Assembly (NCBI GenBank): GCA_030041495.1
Contig: JASHNT010000128.1
Span: forward strand, 1-45,188
Direction: 5' to 3'
Length of the DNA stretch: 45,188 nt
Origin: Bryobacteraceae bacterium
Lineage (GTDB): Bacteria > Acidobacteriota > Terriglobia > Bryobacterales > Bryobacteraceae
Shown: in pieces, positions 34,020 to 42,586 of the stretch
Position numbering within the stretch: position 1 is the stretch's first letter
Layout of the letters: each line of letters opens with the position of its first letter
The notes under the pieces: generated by a model
Database searches by the model: none
Seen by the model: the letters and a program-made list of their open reading frames with translations, nothing else
Told to the model about the DNA's origin: nothing
Position numbers and translations under genes: made by a program

Positions 34020-34922
34020 CTACTTGACCGCGGGCTCGTCTGCCGCGATCACGTCCAAAACTTCTTTGTAGGTTTTTGGAAACTCGCCGCCGAAATGAGC
34101 TTTCAGATCCAGGTCCGCCGCCCAGTCCATGCGCCGCACCGTGGCTTCCGCCATCATCGGCTCAATGCCGAGCTCGCGCAGCGTCGCCGCGACCTCTTCC
34201 ATCTCCCGCGCGCGGCGCTCGCCATGCACGGCCACGCGTCCGATCATGTAGTCGGCCAGCTTCTGGAAATCGATGCCGGGAAAACTTTCGTTAAGAGAAG
34301 CGAACACGCGCGGCTCCGCTCCGTAGTGGCTGGCGCCCAGCACGCATTCGAACAGCAGCGCCTCCAGACCCTTGTAGACGATGCTGCGGAACATCTTCAC
34401 CGCCGCGGCGCGCCCAATCTGGTCCGTCGCCACAACCTCCATGCGCATGCCGAACGGCCGCATTATTTCGACGAATTCGGGTGCGGCTTCGCCCCCCAAT
34501 AGCATCGGGACCTTGTGGGCGTGCGGAGGAACGGGAGCCATCATCGCCGATTCGACGAATCGCGCTCCATTGCGCGAGACGGCTCGCGCGACTTCCTGTT
34601 TGACGCGCGGCGAGACGGAGTTCACGTCGCAGTAAATGTGCCGTGGAGTCAGATACGGCGCGGTTTGTTCGGCCGCGTTCAAAGCCTGATCCGCGGTAAC
34701 CGCGCTGAAGACGACGACGCAGGCTTGGGCAAGCGCGGCGTTCGACTCCACCAGCTCTGTCCCGCTTTCGCGCGCCCGCCCTCGCAGGCGCTCGCTGGAG
34801 TCGATATCGTAGCCGTAGGTCTGCTGGAGACCCGCGCCGCGCAGACCCTTGGCGATGTGATAGCCCGCTTCGCCAAACCCAACGAACCCAACTCTGTCTA
34901 TTGCTTTGTTGGCGGCGCTCAC
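34020..34922 (-). CDS. NAD(P)-dependent dehydrogenase, 6PGDH-type NAD domain plus DUF1932
   Basis: A 300-residue beta-hydroxyacid-dehydrogenase-like protein. GTG 34922 overlaps the transporter stop as GTGA. The Rossmann motif RVGFVGFGEAGYHIAKGL is at residues 9-26. The middle has the family sequence YCDVNSVSPRVKQEVARAV and a substrate-binding-like region GARFVESAMMAPVPPHAHKVPMLLGG, and the C-terminal DUF1932 domain covers about residues 185-275. Relatives oxidise hydroxy acids such as threonate, but the substrate here is unknown. Coupling to a carboxylate transporter suggests it handles the imported acid. A longer 5' extension is out of frame with any start supported by family alignment. Confidence 0.85.
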   Translation of the reverse strand: MSAANKAIDRVGFVGFGEAGYHIAKGLRGAGLQQTYGYDIDSSERLRGRARESGTELVESNAALAQACVVVFSAVTADQALNAAEQTAPYLTPRHIYCDVNSVSPRVKQEVARAVSRNGARFVESAMMAPVPPHAHKVPMLLGGEAAPEFVEIMRPFGMRMEVVATDQIGRAAAVKMFRSIVYKGLEALLFECVLGASHYGAEPRVFASLNESFPGIDFQKLADYMIGRVAVHGERRAREMEEVAATLRELGIEPMMAEATVRRMDWAADLDLKAHFGGEFPKTYKEVLDVIAADEPAVK

Positions 34923-36382
34923 AGAATTCCGATAATCTTCCAGTAAGCCACGCCGACAGCCGTGGCAGCCAAGCCGGCGAAGACATTCACCACAGCCAGC
35001 TTGAACATCTGTCCGGTGCTGTACCCCTGTCCGCCGGTCATGCCTTCGCCCATCGCCATCCAAAAGTTGGTGTACATAAGCAGGAACGGAGCGGACATCA
35101 GCAGCAGCGGAGCAGCCAGCACCAACGGCGGAATGCCTCCGGCGTTCAGCGGCTCAACCAACGGCGACCACAGCAGCGGAATGGCGAAGAAGGCCGAGGG
35201 GTCGATGAAGCGCATACCGAGCATCAGGAACGCCATCACCAGCAACAGGATCAGCGGAACGTGAATCAACGGCAAAATTCGCGGCGCCATGATTCCGGCC
35301 AGCCAGTCCGTGATCTTGTATTGCGGAATGATGTGGGTCAGGCTGAAGATGCCGCCCAGGAACAACAGCAGCGTCCAGGAAACGCCGGTGCCGATATCCT
35401 GGTTTTCGAAGACTCGCGTGAAAGAGAGCACGGCCATGCCGAACATGCCCACCACGAAGGTCGGCAGGTGGTGCAGCTTGCCGGCGGTTACCCAAAAAGC
35501 GATGGAGGTGAACACCACCACGGCGGTGATAAACTCATTGCGGCCTACGCGGCCCAAAGCCTTCAGCCGGCTACTGGCAAAGTCGCGCGAGACGTGAATC
35601 GGCTCTTCCGGTTTCAGGAAGATTTGGTTCAGAATCAGGATCAGCGCGCACATGATCAAGGTGGGCAGCAACATCACTTGGATGTAGCCGCCATCGGTCA
35701 AGGGGAGGTGCTTGTCATCGAACATCTTGATGACCACCGGTCCGTTTAACGACCCCAGCTTGAACGCCAAGCCCGGCACCACCGCCATCTCAATCACGGT
35801 GACCATGATGAGCGCCGAGCCCTTGCTGCGGCCCTTCAATCCCAGCGTCTGCACCAGCGACCAGGCGATGGGAGCCATAATCGCCGTGCGCACCGTCATC
35901 GACGGGATCAGTGGAGAAAGAATCAACCCGATCAAGAAGAATGCCGAGAGAACACCGGTGTAGGTTCCCGGAAACAAGGACAGGATGTAGTAAGCGATGC
36001 GTTCGGCGAGTCCGGTTTTCTTCATCGCGAAGCCGTAGTAGACCACTACCAGCAGGGTCCACCACGCGCCATCCGCGAATCCACTGAGCGCGCCGCTGAT
36101 ATCGCCAGTCCCCTGCACGGTCAGCAGCGGGCGGACACCAATCACCATCAGCGTGCCCATCATCAGCAGCGACGCCACGCCGTTGTTCATCGCCTCCGAT
36201 GCCCACAACACTACGGTCGCCGCGATGATCGCGAGGACAAGCTGCGCGGTATGGCTTAGCCCCGCCTGCGCGGGCATAAAGGCAACCGCCAGTCCCACGG
36301 CGATGGCGACAGCGAGCCAGCCCCACTTGAGCGTGTGCGTGGCGACGGCGGCGGGAGAGGGTGCGGCGACAGAGGTACTCAT
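34919..36382 (-). CDS. DASS/SLC13-type sodium:carboxylate symporter
   Basis: A 487-residue inner-membrane transporter with about 12 helices. It shows the divalent-anion:sodium-symporter features: ILSPLIPSMTVRTAIMAPI (Ser-rich helix hairpin), the repeat VSWTLLLFLGGIFSLTHII, and a second hairpin GMRFIDPSAFFAIPLLWSPL. Substrates of the family are C4 dicarboxylates, citrate or sulfate. ATG 36382 is chosen over 36391 because an extended -10 (TGATACCAT) places transcription start between them. It heads an operon with a hydroxyacid-type dehydrogenase and a Yip1-TPR protein, about 1.3 kb downstream of the lig operon on the same strand. Confidence 0.88.
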   Translation of the reverse strand: MSTSVAAPSPAAVATHTLKWGWLAVAIAVGLAVAFMPAQAGLSHTAQLVLAIIAATVVLWASEAMNNGVASLLMMGTLMVIGVRPLLTVQGTGDISGALSGFADGAWWTLLVVVYYGFAMKKTGLAERIAYYILSLFPGTYTGVLSAFFLIGLILSPLIPSMTVRTAIMAPIAWSLVQTLGLKGRSKGSALIMVTVIEMAVVPGLAFKLGSLNGPVVIKMFDDKHLPLTDGGYIQVMLLPTLIMCALILILNQIFLKPEEPIHVSRDFASSRLKALGRVGRNEFITAVVVFTSIAFWVTAGKLHHLPTFVVGMFGMAVLSFTRVFENQDIGTGVSWTLLLFLGGIFSLTHIIPQYKITDWLAGIMAPRILPLIHVPLILLLVMAFLMLGMRFIDPSAFFAIPLLWSPLVEPLNAGGIPPLVLAAPLLLMSAPFLLMYTNFWMAMGEGMTGGQGYSTGQMFKLAVVNVFAGLAATAVGVAYWKIIGIL

Positions 36383-36393
36383 GGCGACCATCT

Positions 36394-37731: not shown

Positions 37732-37742
37732 AATCCGCTAGC
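37727..37742. terminator. Small hairpin between convergent tlpA-like and ligC genes
   Basis: GCTAG (37727-37731) pairs with CTAGC (37738-37742) across AATCCG. Three of the five pairs follow from the two TAG stops. Weak and tentative. Confidence 0.25.
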
Positions 37743-38718
37743 TGGAGATCCGCTTTTTCAGCGGAGCCTTCCCTTCCCGCCCCACGGCCGCTTCGAGCTT
37801 GTCGAGCACACGCATCGTAGGCAGCACCTGCTGGACGCTCGAATTGGGCTCGCGCTTTTCTTTGATCGCGGCGAAAAATTCCCGATCCTGCAACTCGATG
37901 CCGTTCATCGATACGGCGACATTCGATAGATCGATCTTGTTTTGATCGCCGTCGACCAGATCATCGTAATAGGCGACGTAGGTTCCGTTGTCGCAGATGT
38001 AGCGGAAGAAGGTCCCCTGCGGGCCCTTGTTATTGAACGACAGCGACAGAGTGCAGATGGCCCCGTGCGCAGTCTTGAGTTGGATGCTCATGTCCATGGC
38101 AATGCCAAGCTCAGGATTTACCGGCCCCTGTAACGCGTTGGCGTGCGTGACCTGATCGCCGGTCTGGTAGGCGAACAGGTCCACGGTGTGGCAGGAGTGA
38201 TGCCACAGCAGGTGATCCGTCCAGCTCCGCGGCTTACCAGCCGCGTTCATGTTGGTGCGGCGGAAGAAATAGGTCTGCACGTTCATGTGCAGCACCTTGA
38301 GCTCGCCTTTCTGGATGCGATTGTGCACCCACTGATGGCTGGGATTAAAACGGCGCGTGTGACCGGCCATCGCCACCAACCCCGTCTTCTTTTGCACCGC
38401 GCAGATTCGCTCGGAATCCTCCAGCGTATCCGCCATGGGGATCTCCACCATTACGTGTTTGCCCGCTTCCATGCACTGGATCGCTTGCTGGGCATGCAGT
38501 TGCGTCGGAGTCGTGAGGATCGCCGCTTCGACGCCGGGTTGCTTCAGGCTCTCGGCCAGGTCGGTGGTCCAGTGCGGAATCTTGAATCGCTTGGCGACCT
38601 CCTCGGTTCCCGCCGGATTCCCTCCAGCCAGCGTCACCACCTCGATTCCCGGAATATTCTGCATCGCGTCGAGATGCTTGATCCCGAAAGCGCCTTGTCC
38701 CGCAACCGCTACTTTCAT
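37738..38718 (-). CDS. ligC: LigC: 4-carboxy-2-hydroxymuconate-6-semialdehyde dehydrogenase
   Basis: A 326-residue Gfo/Idh/MocA-family NADP(+) dehydrogenase. In the protocatechuate 4,5-cleavage pathway LigC oxidises the hemiacetal form of the ring-cleavage product (CHMS) to 2-pyrone-4,6-dicarboxylate (PDC). The Rossmann motif is VAVAGQGAFGIKHLD. Segments shared with Sphingobium LigC include GHTRRFNPSHQWVH, VQTYFFRRTNMNA, RSWTDHLLWHH, TVDLFAYQ, GIAMDMSIQLK, TLSLSFNN and SMNGIELQDREFFAAI, making it a specific match and not just a family match. Last gene of the minus-strand lig operon, 15 bases after ligJ, with GGAAGG before the ATG. Confidence 0.93.
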   Translation of the reverse strand: MKVAVAGQGAFGIKHLDAMQNIPGIEVVTLAGGNPAGTEEVAKRFKIPHWTTDLAESLKQPGVEAAILTTPTQLHAQQAIQCMEAGKHVMVEIPMADTLEDSERICAVQKKTGLVAMAGHTRRFNPSHQWVHNRIQKGELKVLHMNVQTYFFRRTNMNAAGKPRSWTDHLLWHHSCHTVDLFAYQTGDQVTHANALQGPVNPELGIAMDMSIQLKTAHGAICTLSLSFNNKGPQGTFFRYICDNGTYVAYYDDLVDGDQNKIDLSNVAVSMNGIELQDREFFAAIKEKREPNSSVQQVLPTMRVLDKLEAAVGREGKAPLKKRISS

Positions 38719-38733
38719 GCCTTCCTTTCTCCT

Positions 38734-39759
38734 TTAGCCTTTGGCTGCCCTCAGCTTTTTTGAAATTCTTGGATAAACTTTGCGCGCGTTGCCTTCATAC
38801 AGCTTGTAGCGATCCGCTTCGCTCAAGGGTTGCGCGTCAAGATACTTTTTCGTGTCGTCGTAAAAGTGACCAGTTCGCGGATCGATGCCGCGCACCGCGC
38901 CCACCATCTCCGACCCGAACAGAATATTGTCGATCGGCACCACCTTCAGCAGTAGCTCGATGCCCGGCTGATGATACACGCAGGTGTCGAAGAACACGTT
39001 CTTGAGCAGCGATTCTTCGAGCGGCGGCCGCTTCATATCCTGCGCGAGGCCCCGATACCGGCCCCAGTGATACGGCGCCGCGCCACCCCCGTGGGGGATG
39101 ATGAACCGCAGCGTGGGGAAATCCTTGAACAGGTCCGAGGTCAGGAACTGCATGAACGCGGTGGTGTCGGCGTTGATGTAGTAAGTTCCGGTGGTGTGGA
39201 AACTCGGCAGGCAGGAGCCGCTGACGTGCACCATCGCGGGTACATCCAGCTCGACCATCGCCTCATAGAACGGATACCAATACTTGTCGCTCAGCGCGGG
39301 CGAGTTCCAGTGCCCGCCGGAAGGATCGGGATTCAAATTGCACCCGATAAAGCCGTATTCAGTGACGCAGCGCTTGAGCTCCTGAATGCAGTTCTCCAGA
39401 CCCACTCCGGGCGATTGCGGCAACTGGCACACACCCACAAAGTTTTCCGGGTAGAGCTTGCACACGCGATGAATCATGTCATTGCAGCGTTCGCTCCAAT
39501 GCAGGCTGGTGGTGGGCGTGCCGATATCCGGCCGCATCACTGAGGCGCGCGGAGAGAAAATCGTCACGTCGGTGCCGCGCTCGCGCTGGAACTTGAGCTG
39601 CGCCCCTTCCAGGCTTTCGCGAATCTGGTCATCGGTGATGTCCAGCGGACCGTTGAACGGAGGGTTCGCCGGGTCCTTCAGCGCCTCGGTCTGATTCTTT
39701 CTCCACGTCTCTATTTGTTTAGGAACGGTCGTGTAGTGACCGTGGCAGTCAATGATCAT
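38734..39759 (-). CDS. ligJ: LigJ: 4-oxalomesaconate hydratase
   Basis: A 341-residue amidohydrolase-superfamily enzyme, the same length as Sphingobium LigJ. It adds water to 4-oxalomesaconate, giving 4-carboxy-4-hydroxy-2-oxoadipate. The zinc-binding MIIDCHGHYT (His6, His8) starts the chain. Shared segments include MTIFSPRAS-like VTIFSPRASVM, GFIGCNLNPDPSGGHW, FWYPFYEAMVELDVPAMVHVSGSC-like sequence, IPHGGGAAPYHWGR, VFFDTCVYHQPG and LFGSEMVGAVRGIDP. It differs clearly from LigI, the PDC lactonase of the same superfamily, so LigI is not represented by this gene. Between the fused dioxygenase gene and ligC in the operon. Confidence 0.93.
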   Translation of the reverse strand: MIIDCHGHYTTVPKQIETWRKNQTEALKDPANPPFNGPLDITDDQIRESLEGAQLKFQRERGTDVTIFSPRASVMRPDIGTPTTSLHWSERCNDMIHRVCKLYPENFVGVCQLPQSPGVGLENCIQELKRCVTEYGFIGCNLNPDPSGGHWNSPALSDKYWYPFYEAMVELDVPAMVHVSGSCLPSFHTTGTYYINADTTAFMQFLTSDLFKDFPTLRFIIPHGGGAAPYHWGRYRGLAQDMKRPPLEESLLKNVFFDTCVYHQPGIELLLKVVPIDNILFGSEMVGAVRGIDPRTGHFYDDTKKYLDAQPLSEADRYKLYEGNARKVYPRISKKLRAAKG

Positions 39760-39793
39760 CGGAGTTCGTTTCTTCGGGCCTAGGTCCCGAGGA

Positions 39794-40951
39794 TTAATTT
39801 CTAGACGCGGCCCGCAACCGGCGAGCCTCCGCCTGAACCGTCACCAGGCACATCAGCATACCCAGGGGATGCGCACCGGCGTCGACCAGCGGATGAGGCT
39901 TCAGCGACCGCAGCACGTCGATGTTTTCGTCCGTGATCATCGCCAGAGCCTTGGATTCCTGCGGATTTAGTTTGTACTTGGCCGCGATCGCCATCGGATC
40001 CTTCAAGAACTCGATACGCATCTGCTGATCCTGCCGCAGGTCGTACAGCACCTTGTTCAGCGGATAGGAAGACGACGGCGGAGCCTTGTAGAACTCGAAG
40101 CCGCCCTGCGAGAACTTGTAGGCTTCCGGCACGTCGCCCGGAGGCGGACCCTGGCGCTTATTCGGGATGAAGCGCATCACCGCGTGGCCGTGATGCCAAG
40201 TGGGTTGATACGTGATCAACTCGCCTGGCACGTTGCCCAGTGCGCCGAACAGGAAGTACCACGGCAGCATCTCCGTGTTGCCGACCTCATCGAGCTGCTC
40301 GCTGGTCAGCTTCAGCAGCGGATCGATGTTGCCGCGCTCCATCAACGCGATGGCCCAGTAATCGAAATCGTAAGCGGGCTGCGGATATTTCCACGTGCCG
40401 GGATAATGCGACAGGCCGCCGCTGGCGATGATCGCCACGCGCTCCGGACGTTCCGCGATCACCTCGGCGATCGCTTTGCCCAGCGCCACGCAACGCTGCG
40501 GAGCCGGCAGCGGAGGCAGATACGTGTTGACGAACACCGGCACCACCGGAATCTTGCCGTTCGGGATCACCCACTCGTACACAGCCGCGAAGGAATGGCC
40601 CAGAATCGCATCCTGCGAATAGGCCATGTCGAAGCCGCGCGCCACCAGCTTTTCCAACATATAGTCCGCGAAGGGCAGGTGCACCGGTACGTCCCAATGC
40701 CGGGCCGCGAAGTGCGCGTGCGATTTCTCACCCGCCACCACGGCGAACGTAGGAACGGAAGACAGGAAGAACGTCTCCAGGTGATCGCTACCGATCACGA
40801 TCGCCAGATCCGGCTTGGCGTCGGCAACATCCTGGCCTATCTCGCGCATAGCGGCGATATCGGCGTCGAGCTGTTCTGGAATCTCCGTGGGGGGTCTAAC
40901 GAACAACTGCGGCGCGTGAACGGTGGAAACGGCGGCGACTATCTTTCCCAT
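39794..40951 (-). CDS. Fused LigB-LigA extradiol dioxygenase (protocatechuate/gallate 4,5-dioxygenase)
   Basis: A 385-residue Fe(II) dioxygenase. Residues 1-285 are a LigB-like catalytic domain with metal ligands His12 (STVHAP), His57 (GSDHLETF) and probably Glu227 (GNTEMLPW), plus catalytic His182 (GGLSHYPG). Residues 295-375 are a LigA-like domain (YPLNKVLYDLRQDQQMRIEF, LNPQESKALAMITDENIDVLRSL, HPLVDAGAHPLGML). In Sphingobium protocatechuate 4,5-dioxygenase these are separate proteins; the gallate dioxygenases DesB/GalA carry the same beta-alpha fusion. LigC in the operon argues for protocatechuate, the fusion for gallate; both may be used. GAGGAG of the Shine-Dalgarno is formed by the last codons of ligK. 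Confidence 0.88.
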   Translation of the reverse strand: MGKIVAAVSTVHAPQLFVRPPTEIPEQLDADIAAMREIGQDVADAKPDLAIVIGSDHLETFFLSSVPTFAVVAGEKSHAHFAARHWDVPVHLPFADYMLEKLVARGFDMAYSQDAILGHSFAAVYEWVIPNGKIPVVPVFVNTYLPPLPAPQRCVALGKAIAEVIAERPERVAIIASGGLSHYPGTWKYPQPAYDFDYWAIALMERGNIDPLLKLTSEQLDEVGNTEMLPWYFLFGALGNVPGELITYQPTWHHGHAVMRFIPNKRQGPPPGDVPEAYKFSQGGFEFYKAPPSSSYPLNKVLYDLRQDQQMRIEFLKDPMAIAAKYKLNPQESKALAMITDENIDVLRSLKPHPLVDAGAHPLGMLMCLVTVQAEARRLRAASRN

Positions 40952-40955
40952 AGAA

Positions 40956-41633
40956 TCACTCCTCAGTCCATTCTACGCCCAGCTCTTTGAGCTTGGCCCT
41001 CAGCCCATACATATCGAGGCCCAATTTTCCCTCGCGCAGGCTGTGCCTGTTCTTCTCTTCCTTGGCAAAGCGAGCCTGGCTGGCCTTGACCACCTCCGGC
41101 GCACGCTCACGCGGCACCACGCACACACCGTCGGCATCGCCAATAACGACGTCGCCGGGTTGGATCGACGCGCCCGCGCACACGATCGGAATGTTTACGG
41201 ACCCGGCGGTTGCCTTTACCGTGCCCTGCGCGTGCACGGCTTTGGACCACACCGGGAAATCCATCGCGGTGAGTTCGCTCACGTCGCGGACGCCTGCCTC
41301 GATCACCAGCCCGACCACCCCGTGCGCCACCAGCGATGTCGCCAGCAGGTCGCCGAACATACCATCGGTTGAATCGGAGGTAGTGGTGACTACCAGGATG
41401 TCTCCGGGCTTGCAGACTTCGATTGCCGCGTGGATCATGAGGTTGTCGCCGGACTGGCACAGCACCGTCACGGCCGAGCCGGCCGCCTTCGCTGACGGAT
41501 AAATCGGGCGCATGTATGGCTTCATCAGGCCGGTCCGCCCCTGCGCCTCGTGCACTGTCGCGACGCCCAGTTCCCCCAGAATTTTGACGGCCTCCGGGTC
41601 CGGCCGCGGAATGTTGCGAACGATTTTGTGCAT
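40956..41633 (-). CDS. ligK: LigK: 4-carboxy-4-hydroxy-2-oxoadipate aldolase
   Basis: A 225-residue class II pyruvate aldolase of the LigK/ProA/GalC group (RraA-like fold) that splits 4-carboxy-4-hydroxy-2-oxoadipate into pyruvate and oxaloacetate. Shared segments: VATVHEAQGRTGL, YMRPIYPSA, QSGDNLMIHAAIE (substrate loop), GMFGDLLATSL, IEAGVRDVSELTAM with the active-site Arg116-Asp117, FPVWSKAVHAQGTVK, GSVNIPIVCAGA and GDVVIGDADGVCVVP. RraA proper lacks the C-terminal part (KLGLDMYGLRAKLKELG) seen here. Second gene of the operon; its last codons carry the Shine-Dalgarno of the dioxygenase four bases downstream. Confidence 0.92.
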   Translation of the reverse strand: MHKIVRNIPRPDPEAVKILGELGVATVHEAQGRTGLMKPYMRPIYPSAKAAGSAVTVLCQSGDNLMIHAAIEVCKPGDILVVTTTSDSTDGMFGDLLATSLVAHGVVGLVIEAGVRDVSELTAMDFPVWSKAVHAQGTVKATAGSVNIPIVCAGASIQPGDVVIGDADGVCVVPRERAPEVVKASQARFAKEEKNRHSLREGKLGLDMYGLRAKLKELGVEWTEE

Positions 41634-41653
41634 GGATTTTGACTCGCGAAAAC

Positions 41654-42586
41654 TTAAGAAACCAGATTGGACGGATTCGTTACCGCCATCCGCCGCACTT
41701 CTGCCTTGCTGAACCCGTTATCGAGCATCTTCTGCGCGAACATGGCGAACCCGTCGGACACTGGGGGATTGATGGTCTGCCCCAAGTCGGTAGACATCAC
41801 AATCCGCTCCGGCCCAACCCGCCGCACAGCCTCGTAAAAAATCTCCCAGGTAGCCTTCTTCGTGAACATGGTGGTGAAGCAGTGCTCGATATTCGCGCCG
41901 AGGTCGGCCAATTGCACCTGTTCGTCCGGCGTCAGGTTCTGCGAGGGGAATTCCGCGTGGGTCACCAGGATGCGCTTCAATCCCATCTCTTTACCGGTCT
42001 TGACCAGTTGGAAAATCTCCTTGCGGCCCAGGTGCCCGGTGGCCAGGATCATGTCATGCTTGCCGATTCGCTCCAGGCACGCCCGAGCGGCCTGGTTCAA
42101 CTTTCCGTCCTCGGCCAGCACCGTCAGTGGGGGCGGCGAAATACCTTCGTCGGAAAGCGACAACTGAATCTGCGCCCAGAACGGCAGCTTGGTAGTGGCC
42201 CCGCCGCGGCGTCCGGCCGTTTCGTTTGCCGCATCCACGGTCGGCATCCAGCAGATTTTATTGCCCGACCGCCCGGCGATCTCCAGCGCCACAGGGTTCA
42301 ATCCGCCGACGCTATGGTTCAGGGTGATGGCCCCAAAGGCCGTGATCCCCAGATGCGCCGAAGCCTTCGTCACCACCTTGGCGCGCTCATAAGTCGGGGC
42401 GTAGTGCGACTTCAAACAAAACCCCTTCAACTTGTGGGCGGCGAACTCCTTAGCGAGATCTAAGTCGTCAATGCGCCTGCTGATAACATCCGGAGCGACA
42501 TGAACTTGCAGATCATAGCCCCCTTCGATCGCCTCCCACGCGGCATTTGTTACGGCTATCGGGGCTTCCACTGTCTCTGCGGCCAT
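41654..42586 (-). CDS. DUF6282 amidohydrolase-like protein heading the lig operon; candidate PDC lactonase
   Basis: A 310-residue protein that I assign to the amidohydrolase-like DUF6282 family. Metal-site-like residues occur at the ends of successive strands: His29 in DLQVHVAPD, Lys59 and His61 in CLKSHY, His91, His185 in ATGHLG, His210 in VTHAEFP and Asp267 in MSTDLGQ. This is the normal amidohydrolase order, with H-x-x-P-D in place of H-x-H. The operon encodes every step from protocatechuate to pyruvate plus oxaloacetate except PDC hydrolysis (LigI), so this product is the natural candidate. It could instead be an oxalomesaconate tautomerase or act on another intermediate. GGAAGGAG precedes the ATG. 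Confidence 0.82.
   Translation of the reverse strand: MAAETVEAPIAVTNAAWEAIEGGYDLQVHVAPDVISRRIDDLDLAKEFAAHKLKGFCLKSHYAPTYERAKVVTKASAHLGITAFGAITLNHSVGGLNPVALEIAGRSGNKICWMPTVDAANETAGRRGGATTKLPFWAQIQLSLSDEGISPPPLTVLAEDGKLNQAARACLERIGKHDMILATGHLGRKEIFQLVKTGKEMGLKRILVTHAEFPSQNLTPDEQVQLADLGANIEHCFTTMFTKKATWEIFYEAVRRVGPERIVMSTDLGQTINPPVSDGFAMFAQKMLDNGFSKAEVRRMAVTNPSNLVS

Follow-up and report, generated by a model that had tools for sequence, protein, structure and literature searches.

The window, the whole stretch of 45,188 nucleotides of Bryobacteraceae DNA analysed here, contains a set of genes for aromatic ring cleavage that encourages us to ask which protein opens 2-pyrone-4,6-dicarboxylate (PDC) when LigI is missing. 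A DUF6282 protein is encoded by the first gene of the set, and the first-pass annotation proposed that it hydrolyses PDC as a non-orthologous replacement of LigI or, alternatively, acts as an oxalomesaconate tautomerase.

The five-gene run and its neighbours

Five packed genes occupy positions 37738-42586 of the minus strand in the order DUF6282, LigK, fused LigB-LigA, LigJ and LigC (table 1). A check of the open reading frames found all of them where the first-pass annotation had placed them, with its family assignments upheld and its range of gaps (4-34 bases) confirmed; the spacers from DUF6282 to LigC are 20, 4, 34 and 15 bases long, and each gene starts with ATG. The run brings together a ring-cleavage dioxygenase, LigC, a hydratase and LigK, which is the combination taken here to define a protocatechuate 4,5-cleavage operon. 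LigC is of the PmdC type, and therefore formation of PDC is implied. Ring cleavage would be the role of the single-chain LigB-LigA protein, with protocatechuate, an acid derived from lignin, as the presumed substrate; its LigA part scores 22.3 bits against PF07746, under the Pfam cut-off of 25.3, and its likeness to solved enzymes is distant only (best 8k04, E 3.2e-22; gallate dioxygenase 3wku, E 1.9e-12). As for the two genes outside the run, a homologue of the transporter is found at 5 of 80 clade DUF6282 loci, no more than 7.5 kb away, and DUF1932 proteins are found nearby in 19 of 80.

Table 1. Genes of the five-gene run and two neighbouring genes in the window.
Feature	Positions	Strand	Length (aa)	Evidence and remarks
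DUF6282 clade protein, first gene of the operon	41654..42586	-	310	PF19799 E 1.3e-58; candidate PDC hydrolase
LigK, 4-carboxy-4-hydroxy-2-oxoadipate aldolase	40956..41633	-	225	TIGR02798 329.6 bits, cut-off 304.5
Fused LigB-LigA, single-chain type II extradiol dioxygenase	39794..40951	-	385	PF02900 E 1.4e-29
LigJ, 4-oxalomesaconate (KCH) hydratase	38734..39759	-	341	solved 4-oxalomesaconate hydratases: 2gwg E 3.3e-151; 6dxq E 3.1e-150
LigC, CHMS dehydrogenase	37738..38718	-	326	PmdC 9azo E 9.1e-143; PF19858 E 2.2e-92; product PDC
DASS-type anion transporter, outside the run	34919..36391	-		PF00939 E 2.1e-36; possible uptake partner
NAD-binding protein with DUF1932 domain, outside the run	34020..35063	-		PF09130 E 2.9e-18; possible accessory oxidoreductase; start codon uncertain

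The DUF6282 protein and its relatives

The window protein is a member of its family by its score of 198.4 bits against PF19799 (cut-off 26.8), and a Pfam search at E 0.001 returned PF19799 alone, with no match to the LigI family PF04909 or the PrpF family PF04303. Sequence search of the PDB found no relative and the literature search no paper naming DUF6282; among the matches listed, the abstracts described no PDC hydrolase other than LigI. Comparison of the DUF6282 alignment A5 with A3, the LigI comparison, gave an hhalign probability of 1.3%. Broader alignments yielded nothing reliable: 8.0% or 40.6%, depending on settings, for DUF6282 against LigI, and 71% over only 67 columns against the Amidohydro_2 set of its own genome. 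With LigI/PmdD, the PDC hydrolase of COG3618 (4d8l), the window protein would share the proposed reaction and the place in the pathway, but it has no reliable sequence relation to it, leaves PF04909 unmatched and carries a conserved residue set of its own.

That set, as conserved in the DUF6282 clade, comprises Gln/His27, His29, Lys59, His61, His185, His210 and Asp267, which may serve as an amidohydrolase-like site. The metal site suggested by the first-pass annotation needs a correction. On the one hand, the residues that it named (His29, Lys59, His61, His185, His210 and Asp267) are all present in the window protein, and His29, His185, His210 and Asp267 are invariant across 42 aligned clade sequences. 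On the other hand, position 27, the first His of the HxH motif in paralogues, is Gln in 28 of these 42 sequences, the window protein included, and His in the other 14. The leader-bearing paralogues (L050-L063) have the motifs D-x-H-x-H, K-x-H, TGH and S-[ST]-D-[LM]-GQ in common with the clade but differ from it in their leader-like N-termini, in their surroundings (matches to LigK, LigB, LigJ, PIG-L and LigC in 0 of 14 loci) and in lacking an insertion of about 20 residues that is found in aligned clade members; the G018 protein is likewise without this insertion.

LigI, LigI-like proteins and DUF6282 in the genus

The first-pass annotation had noted that LigI is missing from the operon and called for a search of the genome. 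A five-sequence LigI profile found no match at E 1e-10 in the window's own genome (G000, 98.2% complete), where none of the 12 Amidohydro_2 proteins scores above 1.8 bits with the same profile; a true LigI elsewhere in this genome was rejected on these results.

Among the 23 genomes of the genus, the fused dioxygenase is present in 13, clade DUF6282 in seven (five of them among the 13) and a LigI-like clade in nine, all within the 13 and none among the other 10, the absences resting partly on draft genomes (completeness 82% for G008, 87% for G016 and 89% for G019). Every dioxygenase genome carries either clade DUF6282 or a LigI-like protein, and G018 alone has both. This complementarity within the 13 gives a Fisher p of 0.007 with kinship ignored; the tree offers three independent contrasts only, two opposite and one with no difference (sign test p 0.5). 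A matching operon without DUF6282 is found in G013, G019, G020 and G008, each with a LigI-like gene elsewhere in the genome, and G008 is the window's sister on the dioxygenase tree (100/97). LigC adjoins the dioxygenase in only four of the eight DUF6282-free genus loci examined.

The LigI-like proteins are candidate PDC hydrolases that keep the majority of LigI's active-site residues. The eight complete members retain H27, H29, Y45, H75, R120, Y153, H177, R214 and D245, which have catalytic roles in LigI and were compared here for conservation. Identity to Sphingobium LigI is 38-42%. In G013 the protein is a fusion (L204:3101-4438), and its LigI-like part has LigI 4d8l as its best match (E 2.4e-62). 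In six of the nine, R180 is Val or the sequence ends before it; because Val occurs in part of the LigI-like clade too, this position does not discriminate between these proteins and a weaker COG3618 class. Members of the weaker class score 188-214 bits, with H75 changed in every aligned one, and a twin-arginine-like leader was seen in all ten that were screened (six from G002, G003, G010, G011, G021 and G022, four from other genomes) versus none of eight LigI-like proteins. The matches of 187-209 bits in those six congeners were considered as a hidden LigI and rejected, because H75 and R126 differ in the aligned members and the leader is present in those screened.

LigI-like proteins are always accompanied by a domain starting with Met-Pro, fused or adjacent, which may be a tautomerase. 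Therefore, DUF6282 complements the pair of LigI-like protein and Met-Pro domain, not LigI alone. A search for this domain found no match in G000, G003, G011, G016 and G021, which make up five of the seven congeneric genomes with DUF6282, a pattern which would suit a DUF6282 protein that not only opens PDC but also supplies the isomer used by the hydratase. Such a double role is nevertheless quite improbable, given that G022 has a stand-alone Met-Pro protein alongside DUF6282 and that LigU is retained in three DUF6282 genomes.

Neighbourhoods of the clade and the proposed pathway

Beyond the genus, lig genes lie within 7.5 kb in 64 of 80 clade DUF6282 loci; none was found at the other 16, some of them on stretches 20 kb long. 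Enzymes of late steps, the aldolase and the hydratase, are the commonest neighbours: LigK is present at 54 loci, PIG-L hydratase at 40, LigC at 14 and LigJ at 10, and a hydratase occurs together with LigK at 44. The first-pass annotation had made a conserved link between DUF6282 and ligC a test of its proposal; a tight tie to LigC alone was not borne out, the ties to LigK and PIG-L hydratase being stronger; a phylum-wide sample, with LigC in 3 of 396 genomes, was too sparse for use. DUF6282 as the hydratase itself is less likely, because many clade loci already have PIG-L or LigJ.

The types of dioxygenase, dehydrogenase and hydratase differ between the clusters. Seven of the 34 with ring-cleavage, hydratase and aldolase genes lack all four kinds of dehydrogenase that were looked for, and therefore PDC need not form in them. 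This could mean that the compound hydrolysed by DUF6282 is a different product of ring cleavage, for example CHMOD, a methyl ester from 3-O-methylgallate, or that DUF6282 works as a decarboxylase making the ring-cleavage substrate, and passages of PMC12314914 provide a precedent in the CHMOD esterase route of Pseudomonas NGC7, which has no PDC hydrolase. We regard either role as improbable: protocatechuate is indicated as the substrate by the LigC-bearing clusters, the window's included, and by the 4-hydroxybenzoate 3-monooxygenase genes adjoining the Thermus and Meiothermus clusters, and the commonest neighbours belong to late steps. The Thermus oshimai homologue of the window protein is WP_015065217.1.

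The same seven clusters would also agree with DUF6282 being the 4-oxalomesaconate tautomerase (the LigU/GalD role, a step common to the gallate and protocatechuate routes), with PDC opened by an unrecognised enzyme or scarcely formed. A two-sequence LigU profile matches few genomes (8 of 57 in one set, 2 of 23 in the genus), clusters of DUF6282, PIG-L, LigK and LigBA look like a gallate operon in which DUF6282 has taken the place of GalD, and in an Actinoplanes cluster (DUF1932-GalB-LigK-LigU-C23O) LigU occupies the position usual for DUF6282. Moreover, the LigI-like alternative bears the possible tautomerase domain for which five of the seven congeneric genomes with DUF6282 gave no match. However, LigU coexists with DUF6282 in G434, G472 and G480, none of which has a LigI match, and this makes the tautomerase role less likely. 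The window's LigC demands a PDC hydrolase, and G000 already has a PrpF-family protein that is 36-37% identical to LigU. Within the genus, a LigI-like protein is part of what alternates with DUF6282, and the DUF6282-free congeners are without LigU too. The tautomerase role is thus unlikely, and the weaker of the two proposed in the first-pass annotation.

Hydrolysis of PDC by the window's DUF6282 clade, in place of LigI, is the probable role as judged from sequence comparisons. It is favoured by the lack of a LigI match in the genome, by the proximity of clade genes to those of the pathway in many bacteria, and by the complementarity of DUF6282 and LigI-like proteins among the dioxygenase-bearing genomes of the genus. 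In the proposed pathway, the single-chain dioxygenase would open the ring of protocatechuate, LigC would oxidise the semialdehyde to the lactone PDC, and the DUF6282 protein would hydrolyse PDC to 4-oxalomesaconate. The isomerisation of this acid may be spontaneous or brought about by DUF6282 or by an unlinked protein; the isomerised acid would then be hydrated by LigJ and split by LigK into pyruvate and oxaloacetate.

Comamonas-type operons (Arthrobacter pJ353-116, Acidovorax pACP3.2) have LigJ, LigK, LigAB and LigC in one run, as in the window, but they possess LigI, which the window lacks while carrying DUF6282. In their fused dioxygenase, PIG-L hydratase and aldolase, many relatives of the window run resemble the gallate operon of Pseudomonas putida, which is of the galABCD type and has a PrpF-like GalD; the window differs in having LigC and LigJ. 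The roles of GalA-D are given in passages of PMC12314914. Somewhat more tentatively than the role in the window, the DUF6282 clade may be seen as a second PDC-opening enzyme of independent origin, around which a modular 4,5-cleavage pathway is built in Acidobacteriota, Deinococcota, Bacillota, Chloroflexota and Actinomycetota. Its dioxygenase (type II or type I), dehydrogenase (LigC, SDR or DUF1932 protein) and hydratase (LigJ or PIG-L) would be exchangeable, with LigK and DUF6282 recurring; this wider proposition is possible, if short of an even chance.

PDC is a building block of polymers, and therefore a PDC hydrolase of a second type would be of consequence for versions of the route that are engineered to accumulate PDC. 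The role proposed here would provide an uncharacterised domain family, which occurs in bacteria and haloarchaea, with a testable function, and it would fill a hole in the pathway of uncultured soil Acidobacteriota. It also suggests that genome surveys in which protocatechuate 4,5-cleavage is scored by LigI overlook lineages.

The five-gene operon and the search for LigI

The first-pass annotation had described a run of five genes, and the reading frames lie where it placed them, all five with an ATG start and separated by gaps of 20, 4, 34 and 15 bases. The first gene encodes DUF6282 (E 1.3e-58), for which a sequence search of the PDB found no relative. LigK matches its profile above the NCBIfam cut-off, LigJ aligns with hydratases of known structure at E about 1e-150, and LigC matches PmdC at E 9.1e-143. 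The dioxygenase is a single chain only remotely similar to solved enzymes; its LigB part is clear, and its LigA part falls slightly under Pfam's cut-off. In the normal operons of Arthrobacter and Acidovorax, by comparison, LigJ, LigK, LigI, LigAB and LigC stand side by side. Elsewhere the window's genome encodes another fused LigB-LigA protein, a more distant paralogue (L186), with no lig genes in the stretch examined; similar paralogues occur in G001, G004, G008, G013 and G020.

LigI had been noted as missing from the operon, and in the window's genome as a whole (6.1 Mb, 98.2% complete) no match at E 1e-10 was found with a LigI profile built from five proteins (Sphingobium, Rhizobium, Arthrobacter, Acidovorax and Azospirillum records). 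Two profile members, compared with the PDB, retrieved LigI (4d8l) at E 3.9e-166 and 8.9e-104. The 12 Amidohydro_2 proteins of the genome reach at most 1.8 bits with this profile. Two control records score 545 and 582 bits; since these records gave profile members, the scores show that the search works and are not a calibration.

DUF6282 and LigI-like proteins within the genus

Among 23 genus genomes, the fused dioxygenase is present in 13, DUF6282 of the window protein's clade in seven, and a LigI-like protein, belonging to one starred clade (96/97) close to LigI, in nine. Of the 13 dioxygenase genomes, four have DUF6282 alone (the window's genome, G003, G016 and G022), eight have the LigI-like protein alone (G001, G004, G007, G008, G013, G014, G019 and G020; in G008 the match is partial, at a contig end, with 135 bits), G018 has both, and none has neither. 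The ten genomes without the dioxygenase contain no LigI-like protein and two cases of DUF6282 (G011 and G021, where the contig stops within the PIG-L gene). This complementarity gives a Fisher p of 0.007 over the 13 dioxygenase genomes with kinship ignored; on the dioxygenase tree, DUF6282 changes three times and the LigI-like protein twice, and of the pairs that are independent, three in all, two are opposite and one shows no difference, giving p 0.5.

Near pairs of genomes tell most. The window's genome and G008 are sisters on the dioxygenase tree (100/97), with LigK, LigBA, LigJ and LigC 86-90% identical, and the 385 bases that precede the G008 LigK gene contain no DUF6282 match. The gene order in G018 is OCD-DUF6282-LigK-LigBA-LigC-DUF1932; G013, G019 and G020 have the same set minus DUF6282, with an extra ORF before LigC in the latter two. 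At the remaining four DUF6282-free loci (G001, G004, G007 and G014) the dioxygenase is not adjoined by LigC, which in G014 lies on a different contig. The LigU profile matched in two of the 23 genomes, both weakly, and LigU is therefore no filler of the gap. Other COG3618 matches in the genus (187-209 bits) appear to be exported paralogues: a twin-arginine-like leader was present in all ten COG3618 proteins screened, four of them from genomes beyond the genus, and in none of eight LigI-like proteins.

The LigI-like protein is accompanied by a domain with a Met-Pro start, either fused at its N-terminus (about 150 residues; cut by the contig end in G008) or encoded by a small ORF that follows the LigI-like gene. 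The stand-alone ORFs match CHMI isomerase below threshold (E 0.011-0.074). All nine LigI-like genomes have the domain. So does G022, a genome with DUF6282 but lacking a LigI-like protein, where the Met-Pro gene sits at a contig end. This domain could be the tautomerase, making the combination a possible tautomerase-lactonase fusion. As the LigI-like protein comes with the Met-Pro domain, what DUF6282 complements is the two together, and DUF6282 might then be a tautomerase or a bifunctional enzyme.

Positions and loci of the features described
Feature	Genome or stretch	Locus or positions
Five-gene operon	window	37738..42586 (minus strand)
Second fused LigB-LigA	G000, C122	23977-25122
DUF1932 protein	window	34020-35063
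DUF1932 protein	L144	17259-18026
DUF1932 protein	L151	5042-5974
Met-Pro domain, fused	G013	L204
Met-Pro domain, fused	G018	L174
Met-Pro domain, fused	G019	L206
Met-Pro domain, fused	G020	L205
Met-Pro domain, fused	G004	L207
Met-Pro domain, fused	G008	
Met-Pro domain, stand-alone	G001	L208
Met-Pro domain, stand-alone	G007	L209
Met-Pro domain, stand-alone	G014	L173

DUF6282 carriers and their gene neighbourhoods

LigI was sought in 57 genomes and two control records; leaving out G014 (no clade DUF6282) and G156 (by its identical contig coordinates a duplicate of G461, locus L102) gives 55 carriers. A COG3618 match at E 1e-10 is lacking in 26 of these and present in 29, exceeding 250 bits in G018 only. 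A two-sequence LigU profile matched in eight of the 57 genomes, strongly in G434 (506 bits), G480 (454) and G472 (340), all three without a LigI match. The LigK-LigU pair of G472 (L171) is separate from its DUF6282-LigJ-LigC-LigBA cluster (L120), and this genome therefore has a known enzyme family for every step except PDC hydrolysis; it is a draft, with LigJ split over two ORFs, a short DUF6282 ORF (276 aa) and LigU partly N. Against a tautomerase or bifunctional role, hydrolysis alone is favoured by G022 and by the LigU-bearing genomes. Actinoplanes regularis carries a DUF1932-GalB-LigK-LigU-type I dioxygenase cluster (L172), and its clade DUF6282 lies at a separate locus without lig neighbours (L140).

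Named genomes were scanned with seven sequences from the window's genus, the best 80 of 218 relatives were kept, and neighbours were counted within 7.5 kb of DUF6282, contig ends shortening many of the loci. Among these 80 loci, LigK is found at 54, a PIG-L hydratase at 40, a LigB-type dioxygenase at 36 (six weak, 64-80 bits), DUF1932 at 19, LigJ and SDR at 10 each, a type I extradiol dioxygenase at nine and aldehyde dehydrogenase at six; LigI or LigU above 50 bits is found at none. A close link of DUF6282 to LigC in particular was not upheld, LigC being present at 14 loci against the 54 of LigK. One or more of LigK, dioxygenase, hydratase and LigC can be seen at 64 loci, and all are missing at 16, including the 20 kb stretches L094, L113, L140 and L141. 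Ring-cleavage, hydratase and aldolase genes occur together at 34 loci, accompanied by LigC at seven, SDR at seven and DUF1932 at 14 (two carry both SDR and DUF1932); another seven, some close to a contig end, lack these three and aldehyde dehydrogenase. The 14 loci of the 30-40% paralogues outside the clade gave no LigK, LigB, LigJ, PIG-L or LigC match, and generic SDR matches at five.

Three types of cluster recur: DUF6282-(PIG-L)-LigK-LigBA plus LigC, SDR or DUF1932; DUF6282-LigC-LigJ (seven loci), followed by LigK-LigBA in all except the truncated L089; and the order type I dioxygenase-GntR-DUF6282-PIG-L-LigK-DUF1932, seen in Alicyclobacillus, Thermogemmatispora, Meiothermus and on a Thermus oshimai plasmid (assigned from annotation and Pfam), with 4-hydroxybenzoate 3-monooxygenase adjoining the Meiothermus and Thermus oshimai clusters. 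A type I (glyoxalase-fold) dioxygenase accompanies PIG-L, LigK and DUF6282 at L144 (the Thermus oshimai plasmid), L126, L129-L133, L138, L143 and L112, as if it stood in for LigAB. DUF1932 NAD-binding proteins lie beside 4,5-cleavage clusters with or without LigI, and are possibly an alternative CHMS dehydrogenase or an accessory enzyme.

Putative active site and function of DUF6282

The residues that the first-pass annotation proposed as a metal site, His29, Lys59, His61, His185, His210 and Asp267, are invariant, as is Asp25, in 42 clade sequences; position 27 holds Gln in 28 of them, among these the window protein and three Actinomycetes drafts, and His in the other 14. Judged by sequence, these conserved residues resemble an amidohydrolase metal site, but profile comparisons of DUF6282 with LigI gave no reliable connection. 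The most likely function of DUF6282, which we consider fairly probable from its sequence and gene context, is that of a putative PDC hydrolase, which would be a non-orthologous replacement of LigI. No description of DUF6282 in this role was found among the matches listed in the literature searched. On the haloarchaeal plasmids L221 and L222 a distant DUF6282 gene adjoins an amidohydrolase gene, together with a Rieske protein on L221, which suggests other catabolic uses of the DUF6282 family.
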